Source: Desulfurivibrio alkaliphilus AHT 2
GTDB lineage: Bacteria > Desulfobacterota > Desulfobulbia > Desulfobulbales > Desulfurivibrionaceae
Direction: 5' to 3'
NCBI RefSeq assembly: GCF_000092205.1
Contig: NC_014216.1
Span: 1,369,742 to 1,433,741 of the forward strand
DNA length: 64,000 nucleotides
Part shown: positions 4,363 to 58,704 of the stretch, piece after piece
How positions within the stretch are numbered: the first letter of the stretch is position 1
Layout of the letters: the number at the start of each line of letters is the position of its first letter
Made by a program: the position numbers and the translations under genes
The notes under the pieces: model-generated
Databases searched by the model: none
Told to the model about the DNA's origin: nothing
Seen by the model: only the letters and a program-made list of their open reading frames with translations

Positions 4363-4471
4363 GTAAGCGGTCACGGGGTGCCCCAGATTGCGGCAAGCAG
4401 ACCGGCGCCGCGTACCTCAGTACGTAAGCCGGGCTGATCGCCGCAAGATGGGGTGCCCCGTGGCCGCTTAC
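4363..4471 (+). repeat. GTAA-hairpin element, type A, between rng and the radical-SAM gene
   Basis: A 109-bp imperfect palindrome from GTAAGCGGTCACGG to its complement. The arms contain the type-A blocks cacggggtgcccc, ttgcgg and accggc, with the conserved internal loop caag opposite atcg. The lead module is reduced to GTAACGC just before it (4356-4362). No convincing 8-bp duplication is seen. The right end supplies the TAA stop codon (4468-4470) of the radical-SAM gene on the minus strand. Confidence 0.85.
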
Positions 4472-7014
4472 GGCCGGGACCATAATTTCATCACCCGGGC
4501 TGCGGCCAACTGTTCCGGTTCCGGGGCGCAGGCGGCGGCTACCACTTCCAGGGGTTTTACCGTCGGCCGGCCGGCTTCCTGGACCATCACCAGCTCAAGT
4601 TCGCCGGGCGCCCGCAGGGCAAACTCCTTTACCACCGGACGAATATCCAGGGTGCGCGCCGCCCCTTTGCGGCGTACCGTCATAACAAATTCTTTAGCAG
4701 CCAGCAAGGCCGACGGCGCCCCGGGGTCGATTTTCCCAGGCAAGCTGATCCGGTAGGAGCTGAGCAGGCTTGGCGGTTGTTGCCGCCCTCCCGGCTCCAG
4801 CAAGAGCACCCGCAGGCCGGCAGGCAACTGCCGGTTCAACTCCTCTTTGGCCGCCGGCAAGTCGGTAAGCGGCGCCGTCAGCTCCAGCCAGAGAAACTCA
4901 TCCTGGCTTTCGGTGCCCAGCGGCAGTGCCGGGCCGAAGGATACCTTGGGCGAGGGGTTGAAGCCCTGACTGAAGGCCAGCGGCCAGCCGGCCCGGCGCA
5001 GGGCCCGGAAAAAGACCTGCAGCACCTCCAAGTGCCCCAGGAAACGGGCCTCCCCCAGCCGGGAATAACGCAGGCGATAACCAATCCCCACCTCCGGCCG
5101 CGCCATCTGATGCGCCCCCTCCTGTTCCGCGGCCTCCCGCCGCCCCCCGGAGTCGCCGGCATCCTGGCCAGTGGTGGCCTCCGGCCGGCGAAAAACCACC
5201 GGCTTAACGGTTTTGAAATCGCACAACCCGCATTTACTGCAACCGTGCAACCGGCAGTCGGGGGTATACTCTTCAGCCAGGGCCCGCTGATATTCCGCCG
5301 CCAGAAATTTCCGGCTCACCCCGGCATCCAGGTGGTCCCAGGGCAAAGGCTCCTCCGGCTCCCGGCGCCTGAGATAGCTATCGAGATCAAGACCCAAAGC
5401 GGCGGCGGCGGCCTGCCAACGCTCCAGGTTGAAATGGTCGGACCAGGCGTCCAGCCGGGCGCCATCCCGCCAGGCCCGCTCCACCAGCGCGGCAAGGCGC
5501 CGATCTCCCCGGCAGAAAACCCCCTCCAGGTAACTTTGGCGCGGATCATGCCATTTGAGTTTGAATTTTTTGTGCCGCAGCTGCTGCTTTAAAAAGTCAA
5601 TGCGGGCAAAGCCCTGCTCTATCGACAGTTGGGGCTCCCGCTCGAAGGGGGTGTGGGGCTTGGGGACAAAGACGGCGCTGCTCACCGTTACCTGGCAGCG
5701 GCCGGCCGGCCCGGTTTTTAATACCTTATGGGCCAACTCGACGATGGCCGCCAGGTCTTCTTCGGTTTCGGTGGGCAGCCCGAACATGAAGTAAAGCTTG
5801 ATCAACTTCCAGCCCAGCCCAAAGGCGCTGCGGCTAGCGGCCAGCAGATCTTCCTCGCTGATTCCCTTGTTGATCACCCGGCGCAACCGATCGCTGCCCG
5901 CCTCCGGGGCCAGGGTGAAGCCGGTCTTGCGCACCCGCTTGATCTGCTCCATCATCTCCGGGGTCAGGGACCCCACCCGCATGGAGGGGAGAGAGACGGA
6001 AACCCGGCGGCGTTCCAGGGCATCCATCAGTTGCCCCAGCAGTTCGTTGATACAGGCATAATCACCGCTGCTCAAGGAGAGCAGGGCCACCTCTTCAAAA
6101 CCGGTCTGTTCAATTTTACCCAGAATTTCCTGCAAAACCCGGGATGGCTCTCGCTCCCGCACCGGCCGGTAGATAACCCCGGCCTGGCAGAAGCGGCAGC
6201 CCCGGGTACAGCCCCGGGCGATCTCCACCCCCAAGCGGTCATGCACCACCCGGGTGGCCGGCACCAGCGGGGCAACGGCATGATCCACCTGTTCCAGGTC
6301 GGCCAGCACCCGGCGGCGAACCGGCGGCAAATCGGGCCGCCGGGCTTCGGTGCCGAGAAAACGGCCCGCCTGGTCATAACGGGGGGCAAAAAAGGAAGGT
6401 ACATAAACCCCCGGCACCGCTGCCAGAGCCGCCAGGATCTGCCCCCGGGCCAGCTTTTGCTCCCTGCCCCGCTGCACCACCGCCAGCATTGCCGGCAGGG
6501 CCTCCTCGCCGTCGCCCAATAAAACGGCATCAAAAAAATCGGCCACCGGCTCGGGGTGGAAGGCACAAGGACCACCTCCGAACACCAGGGGCTGATCTTC
6601 AGTGCGCTCTTCAGCGCGCAAAGGCAGCCCGGCCAGATCGAGGATGGTCAGGATATTGGTATAGCAGAGCTCATAGGGCAGGCTGATCCCCAGCACGTCA
6701 AATTCGCCCAGGGGACGGCGGGATTCCAGGGAAAACAGGGGCAGCCCGGCCTCGCGCAGGGCCTGTTCCAGATCAAGATCCGGGGCATAGACCCGTTCTG
6801 CCAGCCATTCCGGCCGGGCGTTGACCAGGTGGTAGAGAATCTGCAGACCCTGATGGGACATGCCGATTTCGTAAAGATCGGGAAAGGCCAGGGCCAGGCG
6901 CAGGCGGGCCTGCTGCCAGTCTTTCCTGACCACATTGAATTCGTTGGCGCAATAACGCCCGGGTCGGTTGACCCGGGACAACAGGGCATCGATATCCATA
7001 AAAATATTTACCAT
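4468..7014 (-). CDS. B12-binding radical SAM protein fused to a DUF2344-type domain
   Basis: The 848 residues combine a cobalamin-binding-like N-terminal domain, a radical SAM core with the CxxxCxxC cluster (RGCTRGCRFC, C269/C273/C276), a Cys-rich segment around residue 590 (CRLHGCSKCGLC), and a C-terminal domain of about 220 residues (RYSRLGEARFLGHLE...) of the TIGR03936/DUF2344 type. Such fusions (TIGR03960 plus TIGR03936) are commonly next to rng and are thought to modify RNA or ribosomal components; the reaction is not known to me. An alternative ATG at 6999 (MDIDALLSRV) matches the usual family start; neither start has a strong Shine-Dalgarno. The stop codon lies inside the adjacent repeat element. 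Confidence 0.87.
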   Translation of the reverse strand: MVNIFMDIDALLSRVNRPGRYCANEFNVVRKDWQQARLRLALAFPDLYEIGMSHQGLQILYHLVNARPEWLAERVYAPDLDLEQALREAGLPLFSLESRRPLGEFDVLGISLPYELCYTNILTILDLAGLPLRAEERTEDQPLVFGGGPCAFHPEPVADFFDAVLLGDGEEALPAMLAVVQRGREQKLARGQILAALAAVPGVYVPSFFAPRYDQAGRFLGTEARRPDLPPVRRRVLADLEQVDHAVAPLVPATRVVHDRLGVEIARGCTRGCRFCQAGVIYRPVREREPSRVLQEILGKIEQTGFEEVALLSLSSGDYACINELLGQLMDALERRRVSVSLPSMRVGSLTPEMMEQIKRVRKTGFTLAPEAGSDRLRRVINKGISEEDLLAASRSAFGLGWKLIKLYFMFGLPTETEEDLAAIVELAHKVLKTGPAGRCQVTVSSAVFVPKPHTPFEREPQLSIEQGFARIDFLKQQLRHKKFKLKWHDPRQSYLEGVFCRGDRRLAALVERAWRDGARLDAWSDHFNLERWQAAAAALGLDLDSYLRRREPEEPLPWDHLDAGVSRKFLAAEYQRALAEEYTPDCRLHGCSKCGLCDFKTVKPVVFRRPEATTGQDAGDSGGRREAAEQEGAHQMARPEVGIGYRLRYSRLGEARFLGHLEVLQVFFRALRRAGWPLAFSQGFNPSPKVSFGPALPLGTESQDEFLWLELTAPLTDLPAAKEELNRQLPAGLRVLLLEPGGRQQPPSLLSSYRISLPGKIDPGAPSALLAAKEFVMTVRRKGAARTLDIRPVVKEFALRAPGELELVMVQEAGRPTVKPLEVVAAACAPEPEQLAAARVMKLWSRP

Positions 7015-7034: not shown

Positions 7035-7964
7035 TTAGTCAACCGTTTCCAGGGTGTAACCGGCGGGGATGGGAAGCTGAAAATCCTCGGGCCGCAACGC
7101 GCAGTCGGCCAGCAAGTCGGACAGCAGCAGGCTCAGGCTCAATCCTTGATGACGGCGGGAATCCAACTCAATCCGATGGGGCAGCAGCCAGCCGGGCTCA
7201 TCGCCGACTTGCGGCACCGGGCGGTAATCATCGTAAATTATCTCCGCCGGCTGCCGCTGGTCCGGTTCAAAAAGCTGAATCCGCCGCACCAGGCCGGTGC
7301 CCGGGCGGAACGGCGGGTAGTGATCATCGTTGCCGACAACCTTCAGCGGCGGCTCAAGATCGAAAAGCGGCTCAAAAAGCAGCCGGGCCCGGGGGGGCTC
7401 GGCCACCTCCAGCCAGTAACCCCGCCCATCCGGCGCCCGGTAGACCGCCACGATCTCGGGCTCAAGCGGCATGCCGCCAAACAGCCAGGCAAACAGGCTC
7501 TCCGGCAGCCTTTCCGCCGGCAACCCCTGGGGCAGGTGTTGCCGGAATGCCTCGGCGGTGGTCGGACCCTGGTAAACCAGGGCCTGGTTAACCAGCAGCA
7601 GGCGAAAGGTTTCACCGTTGGTGGTCAGCGCCAGCGCCGGGCGCCCCAAGGGGTCCAGGCCGACAAACTTTAACCGGTTGGGCGCCATGGCCTGGAGATA
7701 ACCGGGCAGCACACCGGAGCGCAACCAACTGCGCCACTGGATTTCAGCTTCGGCATCCAGGCATTGCATCTGCCGGTGACGCTGCTCCATGGTCGCCAAA
7801 AACAGTTCTTCCACCCCCTGCCGTTCCCGGCCGGTTAGCTCTTCCCCCACCGGCGGCAGGCGGGTGGCGCATCCCGCCGGCAACAGCAAAAGCAAACACC
7901 ACAGCGGCAAGAGGAGCCGGAAGCAATCGCTTACCGGTGCCGTTTTTCTTCCGGCGGCCATCAT
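7035..7964 (-). CDS. Putative outer-membrane lipoprotein (LolB/DUF4292-like)
   Basis: A 309-residue product from the ATG at 7962-7964. A short basic N-terminus, a leucine-rich membrane segment and the lipobox LPAGC show it is a secreted lipoprotein. The body resembles the LolB/DUF4292 type of lipid-binding beta fold; this is a weak resemblance from residue pattern only. The frame runs further upstream through the neighbouring repeat element, which is not plausible coding sequence. A GTG at 7976 inside the element is another possible start. It originally overlapped the upstream TPR gene by an ATGA junction, now split by the element at 7965-8118. It probably works with that TPR lipoprotein in the envelope. 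Confidence 0.72.
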   Translation of the reverse strand: MMAAGRKTAPVSDCFRLLLPLWCLLLLLPAGCATRLPPVGEELTGRERQGVEELFLATMEQRHRQMQCLDAEAEIQWRSWLRSGVLPGYLQAMAPNRLKFVGLDPLGRPALALTTNGETFRLLLVNQALVYQGPTTAEAFRQHLPQGLPAERLPESLFAWLFGGMPLEPEIVAVYRAPDGRGYWLEVAEPPRARLLFEPLFDLEPPLKVVGNDDHYPPFRPGTGLVRRIQLFEPDQRQPAEIIYDDYRPVPQVGDEPGWLLPHRIELDSRRHQGLSLSLLLSDLLADCALRPEDFQLPIPAGYTLETVD

Positions 7965-8118
7965 GTAACTGTTCACGGGATACCCCCTGCGTGACGATCT
8001 TCCAAGGAGTAAGCGGTCACGGGGCACCCCAGATTGCGGCAAGCAGACCGGCGCAGCGTACACCGGGTACTCAAGCCGGGCTGATCGCCGCAAGGTGGGG
8101 TGCCCCGTGATCGCTTAC
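7965..8118 (+). mobile_element. GTAA-hairpin MITE, type A, with exact 8-bp target duplication
   Basis: Full copy of 154 bp: lead module starting GTAACTGTTCACGGG (7965) and hairpin 8009-8118 (GTAAGCGG...CGCTTAC). It is flanked by the exact 8-bp direct repeat GCCATCAT at 7957-7964 and 8119-8126. The repeat holds the lipoprotein start codon on one side and the TPR-gene stop codon on the other. Removing the element and one repeat restores an ATGA overlap between the two genes. The lead module is shared with the copy at 47833-48002 (ataccccctgcg, gacgatcttccaa). Confidence 0.9.
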
Positions 8119-8122
8119 GCCA

Positions 8123-9901
8123 TCATCCGTTGCGCTCTGCCGTCAGTTCTTTGATCTTTAATTCAATTTGTTCACGCAGTTCCGGATCACCATTGGGAGG
8201 CAGCAGCGCCAGGGCCCGCCGGTAAGCGGCCAAAGCCTCGGCAACGTAGCCCAGCCGGCGGTAGGCGTCCCCCAGGTGATCGTGGATCACCGGGTCGTCT
8301 TCCAGCAGTTGCACCGCCAGCTCAAGCTCCTCCATGGCGCGCTGGTATTTGCCCAACCGGTAATAAACCCAGCCCAGGCTGTCCCGGATGGCGCCGTCAT
8401 CGGGCTTCAGCCGCACCGCCTCCTCGATGTACTCCCGGGCCAGCTCCAGGTTCTCGCCCCGGTCGGCCCAGGTATAGCCCACATAATTCAAGGCATAGGG
8501 ATCGTGGGGATCCAGGGCGATAACCTCCTGCATTTTGGCCAGCGCCCCCTCACTGTCCCCGACCCGGTCAAGATAGACGGCATATTCAAAATATACTTCC
8601 GGTTCCGGTCCCAGGTCCTGCAGGGCGCGTTGAAATATCGCCAGCCCCTGGCCGGCGTCATGCCACTCGATATGCAGCAGCGCCAGGGTGACATAAAAAC
8701 TCAGGTAACGGTGCTGGGAATCGGCCAGGGCCCGCTCCAGTACCGCCTCGGCCGCCACCGGTTGGCCGCTGCCGTGGTATATCCGGGCCAGCATCAGTAC
8801 CGCCTCCTCATAACCGTAATCGCCGGGGCGGATCTCCTCCAGCAGGTTGCGGGCCAAATCGATTTTTCCCAGCCGATAATAGGCCAGCACCAGCAGTGAA
8901 CGAACCGCATCCAGCCGTGGTTCATCGGCAAGCAGCCCCTGCAACAAAACCACCGCTTCCTCGTAGCGCTGTTCATCCAGCAAAATCCTGGCCATGGTCA
9001 GATCGACCCGGTCCACATCCCGGCTGTATGGCCGTAAGGCGGTCAGTTCAGCCAGGGCCTCTTCCACCCGTTCCAACCGCAGATAAAGGTCGGCCAGCAG
9101 TGAGCGGGCCCGCTCATCGGCGGGATTTTTGGCCACCATCCGGCGAAGAAGCGCCAAACTATCTTCGTAAAGACCGGCCGCTTCGTAAATCGCCGCCAGC
9201 TCCTGGGCCAGAGGAGCGGACCAGTTCAGTTCCAGGGCCCGCTCATAAGCCCCCAGCGCCTGTTCAATCAGCCCCAAATCATGGTACAGTCGCGCCAGAT
9301 AATAATGTCCCAGGAAATAGGCCGGCTGGTCGGCCACCAGTTGCTCCAATATTTCACGGGCTTCCTGGCGGCGGTCACTGCTGCCGTAAATCACCGCCAG
9401 CATCAGCATGGCGTTGGCGTTGCCCGGATCAAGCGTGAGAATCTCCTGATAAACGGCAGCGGCCCGATCGGGATCATCAAGAGCGGTATAAAGCTTGGCC
9501 AATAGGGAACGGGCGGCAAGATCGGTCGGATCGATGGCGATGATCCGGCGCACCCAGTAAATGGCCTGCTCCCGCTCCTGTTGCTGAAGCAGCAGCATGG
9601 CCAGTCGGCGCATGACATGAACCGCCTTGCGGTCGCAAAGCAACGCCTGCTGGTAGGCATAGCGGGCCTCATCGTAGCGCCCGCCCAGCTCGGCACTTTT
9701 GCCCCAGGCAAACTGAAAATAAGCGCAAGCCAGGTCCACCGCTTCTTCGTAGGGCTCCAACTCCGCCGCGTAACGTGGCCCGGCAGGGGCAGCCTTAACC
9801 GGTTCCTCGGGAGGCACCGCCGGCCGCGACGCACAACCCCCGGTCAGCAGTAAAACCGCCGCCAATACGGTAGCCAGCGATAACAACCTAGTTGTGCCCA
9901 T
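8123..9901 (-). CDS. TPR-repeat lipoprotein
   Basis: A 592-residue protein from the ATG at 9899-9901 (an in-frame ATG at 9907 and GTG at 9913 are alternatives). The N-terminus has a hydrophobic stretch ending in the lipobox LTGGC, so it is exported and lipidated. The rest is a regular array of about 34-residue helix pairs with TPR signatures such as LDPGNANAMLMLAVIYG, DPHDPYALNYVGYTWADRG and PVIHDHLGDAYRRLGY; roughly 12-14 repeats can be counted. TPR arrays scaffold protein complexes; the partner is unknown. It was originally translationally coupled to the downstream lipoprotein gene, which suggests they act together. Confidence 0.83.
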   Translation of the reverse strand: MGTTRLLSLATVLAAVLLLTGGCASRPAVPPEEPVKAAPAGPRYAAELEPYEEAVDLACAYFQFAWGKSAELGGRYDEARYAYQQALLCDRKAVHVMRRLAMLLLQQQEREQAIYWVRRIIAIDPTDLAARSLLAKLYTALDDPDRAAAVYQEILTLDPGNANAMLMLAVIYGSSDRRQEAREILEQLVADQPAYFLGHYYLARLYHDLGLIEQALGAYERALELNWSAPLAQELAAIYEAAGLYEDSLALLRRMVAKNPADERARSLLADLYLRLERVEEALAELTALRPYSRDVDRVDLTMARILLDEQRYEEAVVLLQGLLADEPRLDAVRSLLVLAYYRLGKIDLARNLLEEIRPGDYGYEEAVLMLARIYHGSGQPVAAEAVLERALADSQHRYLSFYVTLALLHIEWHDAGQGLAIFQRALQDLGPEPEVYFEYAVYLDRVGDSEGALAKMQEVIALDPHDPYALNYVGYTWADRGENLELAREYIEEAVRLKPDDGAIRDSLGWVYYRLGKYQRAMEELELAVQLLEDDPVIHDHLGDAYRRLGYVAEALAAYRRALALLPPNGDPELREQIELKIKELTAERNG

Positions 9902-9925
9902 GACCATCCCCACTGATCATCGTTG

Positions 9926-10097
9926 GTAATCGTTCAGCCGCACCGCATCTTCGGGCGATCAGCCAGGCTTACGGAGGGGACAGTTTTAAAAACTGTCCCC
10001 GATTACGCTGCACCTGGCTGCTTGCCCGAACCTGCGGCACTGCTGAACGATTACAGCCCGTTATACCTGCAGGTTAGTACCCCCGGTAAACGGTTAC
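9926..10097 (-). mobile_element. GTAA-hairpin MITE, type B, with nested palindrome and 7/8-bp target duplication
   Basis: Inverted orientation relative to the copy at 17593. Hairpin 9926-10054 with type-B arms (cgttcag, ttcggg, gccagg blocks), followed by the lead module to GGTTAC at 10097. Flanking direct repeats are CATCGTTG (9918-9925) and CATTGTTG (10098-10105). The tip is replaced by a palindrome with GGGGACAGTTTT arms (9976-10000). Its end supplies the tmk stop codon; without the element tmk would stop one codon earlier. Confidence 0.88.
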
Positions 10098-47832: not shown

Positions 47833-48002
47833 GTAACTGAGAATACCCCCTGCGAGACGATCTTCCAAAGAGTAAGCGGCCACGGGGCACCCCAGATTGC
47901 GGCAAGCAGACCGGCGCAGCGTAATCGGGGACAGTTTTCAAAACTGTCCCCTCCTCAAGCCGGGCTGATCGCCGCAAGGTGGGGTGCCCCGTGATCGCTT
48001 AC
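47833..48002 (+). mobile_element. GTAA-hairpin MITE, type A, with nested palindrome, cutting the end of the fumarase gene
   Basis: Lead module from GTAACTGAGAATACC (47833) and hairpin 47872-48002. Direct repeats GCGACGGT (47825-47832) and GCGGCGGT (48003-48010) flank it. The tip carries a 24-bp GGGGACAGTTTT-type palindrome at 47927-47950. It lies inside the 3' end of the fumarase beta gene and replaces its original last codons. Confidence 0.88.
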
Positions 48003-48592: not shown

Positions 48593-48743
48593 GTAAGCGT
48601 TCACCAAGGGCACTAACCTACCGGTTTAACGGGCTGTAACCGAACAGCCGTGCCGCAGGTTCGGGTAAGCAACCAGGCGCGGCGTACCCCCTGTACGTAA
48701 GCCTGGCTGATCGCCCGAAAATGCGGTGCGGCTGTTCGATTAC
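48593..48743 (+). mobile_element. GTAA-hairpin MITE, type B, with exact 8-bp target duplication
   Basis: Lead module GTAAGCGTTCACCAAGGG (48593) and hairpin 48636-48743. Flanked by exact AATTACAG at 48585-48592 and 48744-48751. The repeat on the right contains the stop codon of the fumarase alpha gene. It separates the two fumarase genes, originally about 20 bp apart. Confidence 0.92.
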
Positions 48744-52664: not shown

Positions 52665-53756
52665 CTATTCTTCCTTGTGTTTTTGGGCCGCCTTGCGGAC
52701 CGCCAGCGACGGCGCATCGGTAAACAGTTCGGGGTTTGCGGCCGGTACCGCGGCAGCCGGGCGAAAATTGCGACCGAAATGTTCATAGGCGGCCCGGGTA
52801 GCCATCCGGCCCCGGGGAGTGCGGACCAGAAAGCCGGCCTGGATCAGAAAGGGTTCATAGACATCTTCCAGGGTGTTTTTTTCTTCGCAGACCATGGTGG
52901 CCAGGGTTTCCAGCCCAATGGGCCCCCCCTGGAAGCGGTCGATCAGGGCCAGCAGAATCCGGCGGTCCATTTCATCAAAACCCAGCAGGTCCACCCCCAG
53001 CATGCTGAGGGCGGCATCGGCGATCTCGGCGGTGATCTTGCCCCGACCCTTGACCTCGGCAAAATCCCGCAGGCGGCGCAGCAGCCGGTTGGCGATCCGG
53101 GGGGTGCCCCGGGAGCGGCGACCGATCTCCAAGGCGCCGGCCTGGTCAATGGGTACTCCCAGCAACTCCGCCGACCGCTTGACGATGGCCACCAGTTCTT
53201 CCGGGGCATAAAAGTCCAGGCGCAGGGAAAGACCGAAGCGATCCCGCAGCGGCGGGGTCAGCAGGCCGGTACGGGTGGTGGCCCCCACCAGGGTGAAGCG
53301 GGGCAAAGACATCTTCACGCTGCGCGCCCCCGGCCCCTGGCCGATCACCAGGTCCAGTTCAAAATCCTCCATGGCCGGGTACAGGATCTCTTCCACCACA
53401 TGGTTAAGGCGGTGAATTTCATCGATGAACAGCACATCCCCTTCCTGGAGACTGGTGAGAATGGCGGCCAGATCACCGGCCCGCTCAATGACCGGCCCGG
53501 AAGTAACCCGGATGCCGGCTCCCATCTCATTGGCGATCACGTAGGCCAAGGTGGTCTTGCCCAGGCCGGGAAAACCGTGAAAAAGGGTATGATCCAGGGC
53601 CTCCCCCCGGCCTTTGGCGGCGGCAATGGCGATCTCCAGGTTCTCCTTGACCTGCTCCTGGCCAATATACTGGTTCAGCAGCTTGGGCCGCAGGGCCACC
53701 TCGCAAAGATCCCCGGTAACCGCATCGGGGCTGACAACTCGCTCTTCCTGATTCAT
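52665..53756 (-). CDS. ruvB: Holliday junction branch migration helicase RuvB
   Basis: AAA+ motor that drives branch migration with RuvA. The 363 residues include the Walker [19 protein letters not shown] (Phe where Pro is usual), [11 protein letters not shown] (Walker B), [19 protein letters not shown], and the winged helix with [18 protein letters not shown] at 53754-53756 lies in the duplicated GATTCAT sequence made by the adjacent element; originally it overlapped the ruvA stop as ATGA. Confidence 0.96.
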
Positions 53757-53757
53757 A

Positions 53758-53909
53758 TTAACCGCTCACCAAGAGCAAATGACTTAACCAGACAACGGGC
53801 TGTAAACGTTCAGCGGTGCCGCAGGTTGCGGCAAGCGAACCGGCGCCGCGTACCTCAGGTACGCAAGCCGGGTCGATCGCCGCAAGATGCGGTGCTGCTG
53901 GACGTTTAC
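53758..53909 (+). mobile_element. GTAA-hairpin MITE at the ruvA/ruvB junction with 7/8-bp target duplication
   Basis: Starts TTAACCGCTCACCAAG (53758, first base changed from G) and has a hybrid hairpin 53802-53909: outer type B (cgttcagcgg) and inner type A (ttgcgg, accggc). Flanked by GATTCATA (53750-53757) and GATTCATG (53910-53917). On the minus strand both copies read ATGAATC: one is the ruvA stop (TGA), the other the ruvB start (ATG). The element therefore cut an ATGA overlap without damaging either gene. Confidence 0.9.
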
Positions 53910-53912
53910 GAT

Positions 53913-54560
53913 TCATGCCAAGGACCTCAAGGCTTGCCGCAACAACTCTTCCACCGGCAGTTCAAGGGAGACATCGGCAGCCGACCGCAGACCCTCCAGC
54001 GCCGCCCGGGCCTGGGAAGCCGGGTAGCCGAGGTTAAGAAGGGCGGAATAGGCGTCCTGAAAGGAAGGTTCATTGAAGTCGGCGGCGGCCGCCGAGGAGG
54101 GAGAAAGCGCGGCACCCGGCCCGACGACGGTACCAGCATCGGTGGTGGCCGTGGGAAAGAATTCCATTTTGTCGCCCAATTCCAGGCACAGTCGTTCGGC
54201 GGTTTTTTTCCCCACCCCGGGCAATTTTTTCAGAAAAACAATATCGCCGGCGATGATCGCCCGGCTCAGGGCAGCGGGCTCGGCGGCGGCGAGAATATTC
54301 ATGGCCAACCGCGGCCCCACCCCGGAAACCCCCAACAGCAGCTGAAACATTCTCTTCTCGCGACTATCGGGAAAGCCGTAAAGATTGAAGGAGTCCTCCC
54401 GGACCACGGTCTGAATATACAAAAAAAGCTCTTCGCCGACGGCCGGCAGGCGATCATGGCGGGAGGCGGGCAGAAAAACCTCATACCCTACGCCGCCCAC
54501 CTGGAGCACCAGACTGTCCGGCCCTTTATGGGCCAGTTTTCCCTGCAAAGAAGCAATCAC
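53913..54560 (-). CDS. ruvA: Holliday junction DNA-binding subunit RuvA
   Basis: Tetrameric junction-binding protein. The 215 residues have the OB-fold domain I (MIASLQGKLAHKGPDSLVLQVGGVGYEVFLP), helix-hairpin-helix motifs (LLGVSGVGPRLAMNIL, LKKLPGVGKKTAERLCLEL) and a C-terminal domain that binds RuvB (FQDAYSALLNLGYPASQARAALEGL). Its stop is at the edge of the element. Order ruvC-ruvA-ruvB is typical. Confidence 0.96.
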   Translation of the reverse strand: MIASLQGKLAHKGPDSLVLQVGGVGYEVFLPASRHDRLPAVGEELFLYIQTVVREDSFNLYGFPDSREKRMFQLLLGVSGVGPRLAMNILAAAEPAALSRAIIAGDIVFLKKLPGVGKKTAERLCLELGDKMEFFPTATTDAGTVVGPGAALSPSSAAAADFNEPSFQDAYSALLNLGYPASQARAALEGLRSAADVSLELPVEELLRQALRSLA

Positions 54561-58675: not shown

Positions 58676-58704
58676 GTAAGCTAATAACCCTGGTGAACGG
58701 TTAC
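58676..58704 (-). mobile_element. 29-bp micro-element with exact 8-bp target duplication
   Basis: Reads GTAAGC to GGTGAACGGTTAC: left and right ends of the GTAA element with the hairpin deleted. Flanked by exact TTGACAAG at 58668-58675 and 58705-58712. The duplication makes two TTGACA boxes upstream of the TraB-family gene. The rest of the 58467-58808 gap holds no recognisable gene. Confidence 0.7.

Follow-up and report, generated by a model that had tools for sequence, protein, structure and literature searches.

Background

Small non-autonomous elements built around a hairpin include ERIC, RUP, NEMIS/Correia and the RPE of Rickettsia, and the element described here is alike in this respect. 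The termini of ERIC, RUP and Correia carry 5'-TA-3', which those of the present element lack. YPAL (RU-2) of Yersinia is likewise a hairpin MITE, similar in size and flanked by duplications. In De Gregorio 2006 these elements are said to tend to sit just past stop codons. YPAL has internal inverted repeats and duplications of variable length, 3 to 26 bp (PMC2229807), whereas the present element has a duplication fixed at 8 bp and terminal repeats. Some of the small hairpin elements can be translated in frame (PMC2229807), a property that recalls the in-frame elements found here in the lipoprotein orthologues of two congeners, G001 and G002.

The REP/RAYT group is defined by a GTAG or CGTC tetranucleotide tag, and the termini of GTAG-tagged REP palindromes "often provide" a TAG stop to flanking ORFs (PMC3733652). 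The present element is similar in that short palindromes adjoin genes and their termini can give the stop. However, it has GTAA, creates 8-bp duplications, is a 150-bp composite with an outer end and shows no link to RAYT loci. The IS66 insertion sequences and their MITEs share GTAA terminal repeats, an 8-bp duplication and a preference for AT-rich targets with the element, and a published IS66 terminal repeat starts GTAAGCG (PMC12888890). In contrast to IS66, the element has no transposase genes and has a long hairpin interior not seen in IS66, and the likeness of the ends extends over only about 11 nt.

In bacterial operons there is little room for mobile DNA to insert safely. The MITE family described here has found a spot that spares both neighbours, the stop codon. 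It follows measurable rules, with the stop inside the duplication, the reading frame fixed and the orientation biased, and these rules make it possible to test directly, on a single element, whether target choice or selection after insertion is at work.

Insertion at the TPR/lipoprotein junction

The window analysed here is a stretch of 64,000 nt from the genome of Desulfurivibrio alkaliphilus AHT 2 (3,097,763 bp, single contig). On the minus strand a TPR-repeat lipoprotein gene (8123-9913; an ORF matching Pfam TPR families) lies upstream of a second lipoprotein gene (7035-7964), which has no Pfam match and adjoins the TPR gene through the order. The two are separated by a 154-bp insert (7965-8118) that has GTAA at its start, TTAC at its end and a perfect 8-bp GCCATCAT (minus strand ATGATGGC) on both sides. 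An earlier sequence-only reading of this DNA had described an exact duplication holding the stop of one gene and the start of the other, and this is what is present. The right copy (8119-8126) carries the TGA of the TPR gene (8123-8125), which on the minus strand terminates GGA TGA within ATGATGGC. The left copy (7957-7964) retains ATG ATG GCC, where the lipoprotein gene picks up as ATG ATG GCC GCC. Both genes are intact despite the insert. When it is removed, the rejoined flanks read ...CGCAACGGATGATGGCCGCC... with a 4-bp ATGA overlap. The overlap is ancestral, because the pair is syntenic throughout the order and most same-family relatives keep a 4-bp ATGA or GTGA there. The element entered an ATGA stop/start overlap, and the duplication restored both genes.

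The other insertion in a stop/start overlap that the reading had counted is also there. It is an F2-type element (53758-53909, minus strand) in the ATGA overlap of the ruvA stop and ruvB start, with a duplication, GATTCATA/GATTCATG, that agrees at 7 of 8 positions.

In the congeners G001 and G002 the TPR/lipoprotein junction holds GTAA-type elements that lie in frame a few codons into the lipoprotein gene, at differing positions, and in G013 it holds an unrelated repeat. As the positions of the former differ and the latter is unrelated, the junction was probably invaded repeatedly, and the orthologous junctions L064 (G002), L066 (G001) and L074 (G013) appear to be independent events. The in-frame element of G001 and G002 is a possible N-terminal extension of the lipoprotein.

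Structural features of the element

The insert is a 154-bp non-autonomous mobile element of family F1, read on the minus strand from a hairpin end GTAAGCGATCACGGGG through a long hairpin to an unpaired outer end. In the gene direction, the TPR TGA in ATGATGGC is followed by GTAAGCGATCACGGGG..., a 110-base hairpin, a linker and the outer end AGGGGGTATCCCGTGAACAGTTAC, directly after which ATGATGGCC begins the lipoprotein gene. The palindromic part, GTAAGCGATCACGGGGCACCCC...GGGGTGCCCCGTGACCGCTTAC (8009-8118, minus strand), is recognised from its fold and from the inverted repeat 8006-8052/8075-8121, and it is also found alone elsewhere. The predicted RNA fold of 7957-8134 has an energy of -96.5 kcal/mol (z -6.7). 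The outer end and linker (7965-8008, minus strand; ...GCAGGGGGTATCCCGTGAACAGTTAC in the gene direction) contain a Shine-Dalgarno (SD)-like AGGGGG, and the computed anti-SD pairing of the outer end is -10.8 kcal/mol. A GTG at 7974-7976 precedes the lipoprotein ATG in the same frame, with the translation VNSYMMAAGRKT... The candidate starts of the lipoprotein are the ATG at 7962-7964 and this GTG (both minus strand), and we infer that the element GTG may serve as the start.

Copies elsewhere are built alike, from an outer GTAA end, a linker of approximately 43 nt and a hairpin whose feet are GTAA/TTAC. They fall into at least three subfamilies, F1 (CACGGGG), F2 (CAGC/CACCAGGG) and F3 (CACAGGG). 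Identity reaches 98% in other 154-bp copies, and each of the other copies detected with a duplication has a different one. Pairs of GTAA/TTAC ends lying 26-330 bp apart are flanked by perfect 8-bp repeats in 37 cases, compared with an expectation of 0.5 from shifted flanks. These duplications, and the GTAA ends and 8-bp duplications of IS66 copies in the order, make for a firm classification by sequence as a MITE: it is non-autonomous, its ends are GTAA...TTAC and its target duplications are 8 bp long. An Rfam scan of the 64-kb window and a plasmid search with the element as query returned no match.

Relationship to IS66

The resident IS66 of the source genome has GTAAGCGCTCA at both ends. The element and this IS66 end have GTAANNGNTCA in common and nothing beyond. 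Elsewhere in the order, autonomous IS66 copies carry GTAA ends, perfect 8-bp duplications and mostly AT-rich targets. An IS66-type transposase is therefore the likely mover as judged from the ends. The transposase is present in the element-bearing genomes G000 and G002. An IS66 gene was not found in the other three of the five (G001, G003 and G013), which are all drafts of 77-95% completeness and may lack transposase genes for that reason. The sampled DNA yielded no autonomous parent whose ends matched within 4.5 kb. The sole IS66 copy of the genome (L002, genome 2115500-2124500) is not flanked by a target duplication, and the genes around it are broken ones of epimerase type, a setting that suggests a flanking deletion or rearrangement.

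Insertions are concentrated at stop codons

The census sample of 1.23 Mb comprised the 64-kb window, approximately 370 kb around elements and approximately 800 kb chosen regardless of elements. Gene calls were made on the empty-site sequence by a simple caller that relies on codon usage and labelled 88% as coding; the published coding fraction of the genome is 90.6% (PMC5016858). All gene borders are those of this caller. Its start calls are poor and the lipoprotein start was missed, and start-dependent statements were therefore kept to individually read sites or handled conservatively. The offset d gives the position of the duplication's first base relative to that of the stop.

A whole stop codon lies within the duplication in 18 of 60 duplication-flanked insertions (0.3 expected), and d falls from -8 to +2 nt of a stop in 27 of the 60 (0.54 expected). 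The pattern is weaker in G001, G002, G003 and G013 pooled, with a stop in the duplication in 6 of 42 (0.21 expected) and d of -8 to +2 in 9 of 42 (0.40 expected). When duplications are ignored, 85 of 144 F2-type places (59%) have a stop -6 to 8 nt from the border, compared with 1.2% at random. This holds for full (44/67), hairpin-only (25/46) and partial (16/31) copies, and in 30 of the 144 places the stop is the element's own TAA.

The sequence-only reading had offered a target preference for stop/start overlaps as one of two explanations. The distribution of insertions does depart strongly from random, but the feature that it follows is the stop codon rather than the overlap. Overlaps of 4 bp make up 5 of 27 stop-site insertions versus 11% of all stops (Fisher p=0.22), and a special preference for ATGA overlaps is rejected. 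Both overlap insertions are true examples of the wider stop-codon rule. The target consensus is weak, with an AT-rich core that is clearest at duplication positions 2-7.

A bias from demanding an intact duplication is also rejected. Perfect and imperfect duplications stand at 23:13 at stops and 43:23 elsewhere. The concentration is similar in the hairpin-only and partial copies, which were identified independently of any duplication. Of the full F2 copies, 32 of 68 lie at stops when every state of the duplication is included. Within these 68, however, copies with a decayed duplication are at stops less often than the others (4/19 vs 28/49). Loss of intergenic copies by decay is unsupported because partial copies are likewise at stops.

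Several features point to selection. In 19 of the 22 insertions that lie between 6 and 60 nt upstream of a stop, the reading frame is the one that makes the terminal G-TAA an instant stop (p=4e-7). The hairpin end faces the upstream gene in 29 of the stop-site copies and faces away in 6 (p=1e-4), and hardly any copies lie deep within a gene. If no more than 10 nt separate the element from the next start, so that the ribosome-binding site of the next gene is severed, the outer end is downstream in 8 of 8 cases. The outer end resembles a ribosome-binding site and at the TPR/lipoprotein junction would supply AGGGGG and the in-frame GTG. Several oppositely oriented copies retain their own downstream ribosome-binding site (for example AGGAG in L106). 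The number of sites bearing on this idea is small (Fisher p=0.06).

Targeting and retention

The reading that we favour, with a probability of roughly 0.55, is that the element is a MITE probably moved by an IS66-type transposase and that the persisting copies are those with ends that fit gene borders. Insertions would land on AT-rich octamers and most would be lost, the survivors being copies whose ends suit gene borders. The terminal G-TAA would close the upstream frame where the duplication does not, and the hairpin would then keep the two genes apart. The unpaired outer end (GGTGAACGGTTAC; AGGGGG...GTG in the 7965-8118 copy) may replace the ribosome-binding site cut from the next gene. Survivor bias by itself, with random insertion, loss of the harmful copies and survival in overlaps because the duplication rebuilds both genes, had also been raised by the sequence-only reading, and we regard it as improbable. 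The near absence of deep intragenic copies, the frame rule (19/22) and the two intact genes at the TPR/lipoprotein junction all agree with it, and to this extent survivor bias is real. However, it expects intergenic DNA to be hit at least as densely as stops, and the observed density is at least 5-fold lower, which disfavours it unless most intergenic insertions are strongly harmful. It fails alone because stop sites account for 45% of intergenic plus stop-site insertions, while 6.6% is expected from a model of AT preference in which survival is neutral (p=2e-19). Preference for AT-rich targets is rejected as the sole cause, since it favours stop sites over intergenic DNA by a factor of only about 1.2. 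For stops followed by at least 60 nt of free DNA, the 8 stop positions hold 7 insertions and the 50 positions beyond them hold 8 (p=0.002). In the G003 burst, whose copies are 95-99% mutually identical, four of ten reconstructed sites are at stops and none is deep within a gene; 4 of 9 near-identical young copies are at stops versus 6.6% expected (p=0.002). Selection against gene disruption alone predicts neither stops richer than free intergenic DNA nor the pattern of these young copies.

The excess over the neutral model and the young G003 copies therefore call for either targeting by the mover of the MITE or strong positive retention of hairpins abutting a stop. The excess over intergenic DNA suggests either active favouring of such a hairpin or a preference of the insertion process for stop codons. 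Transposition directed by the stop codon or a linked DNA feature, in a fixed direction with the hairpin end towards the upstream gene, is a tentative alternative. It would account for a sharp peak centred on the stop that persists where at least 60 nt are free downstream, for the AT-corrected excess (45% vs 6.6%), for the orientation bias of 29:6 and for the early appearance of the pattern in G003, where 0 of 10 sites are deep in a gene. However, autonomous IS66 copies of the order lack the concentration seen in the element: 0 of 19 sites in other species are at a stop and many are within genes, although these copies are possibly younger and less filtered by selection. Intergenic stop triplets are not hit in proportion (16 of 30 targets contain one vs 37% of random windows), and the frame rule implies that selection shaped part of the peak. 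An element of this directed, fixed-orientation kind would be a portable intergenic spacer that carries a stop codon and a 3' hairpin and supplies the following gene with a ribosome-binding site, a proposal that we hold a little more loosely still. Spread of the palindromes by a REP-associated tyrosine transposase is very unlikely. The palindromic form, the conserved tetranucleotide at the hairpin foot and Y1-transposase genes (RAYT-like or IS200-like) in 5 of 5 genomes are in line with it, but the element has clean 8-bp duplications and its tetranucleotide is GTAA rather than GTAG. Duplications of this kind are not known from transposases of this class. A profile and BLAST search found a full or partial element in 0 of 10 Y1-transposase loci, and RAYT was rejected as the mover for want of any such association. 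Between selection or retention, as in the favoured reading, and targeting of the stop codon, the former is somewhat more likely. The family suggests a route by which tight gene pairs such as ruvA/ruvB are uncoupled, with the element providing new intergenic signals.

Other copies in the window

The element at 53750-53917, counted with its duplications, uncouples the classic operon pair ruvA/ruvB. A further F2 element (48593-48743, minus strand) lies after a fumarate-hydratase-like alpha gene and before the beta gene, both named from their translations, and its perfect duplication AATTACAG contains the alpha stop. The beta gene is flanked by two elements, one at each end (47833-48002 and 48593-48743). 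A hairpin-only copy at 4363-4471 provides with its G-TAA the stop of the gene at 4468-7014 and is flanked by no clear duplication. A 29-bp mini-element GTAAGCTAATAACCCTGGTGAACGGTTAC (58676-58704) has a perfect duplication TTGACAAG, and two ends are apparently enough for movement. A separate small palindrome, GGGGACAGTTTT..AAAACTGTCCCC, occupies the loop of certain copies in a seemingly nested position (9976-10000 and 47927-47951), and seven were seen in the 1.23 Mb.
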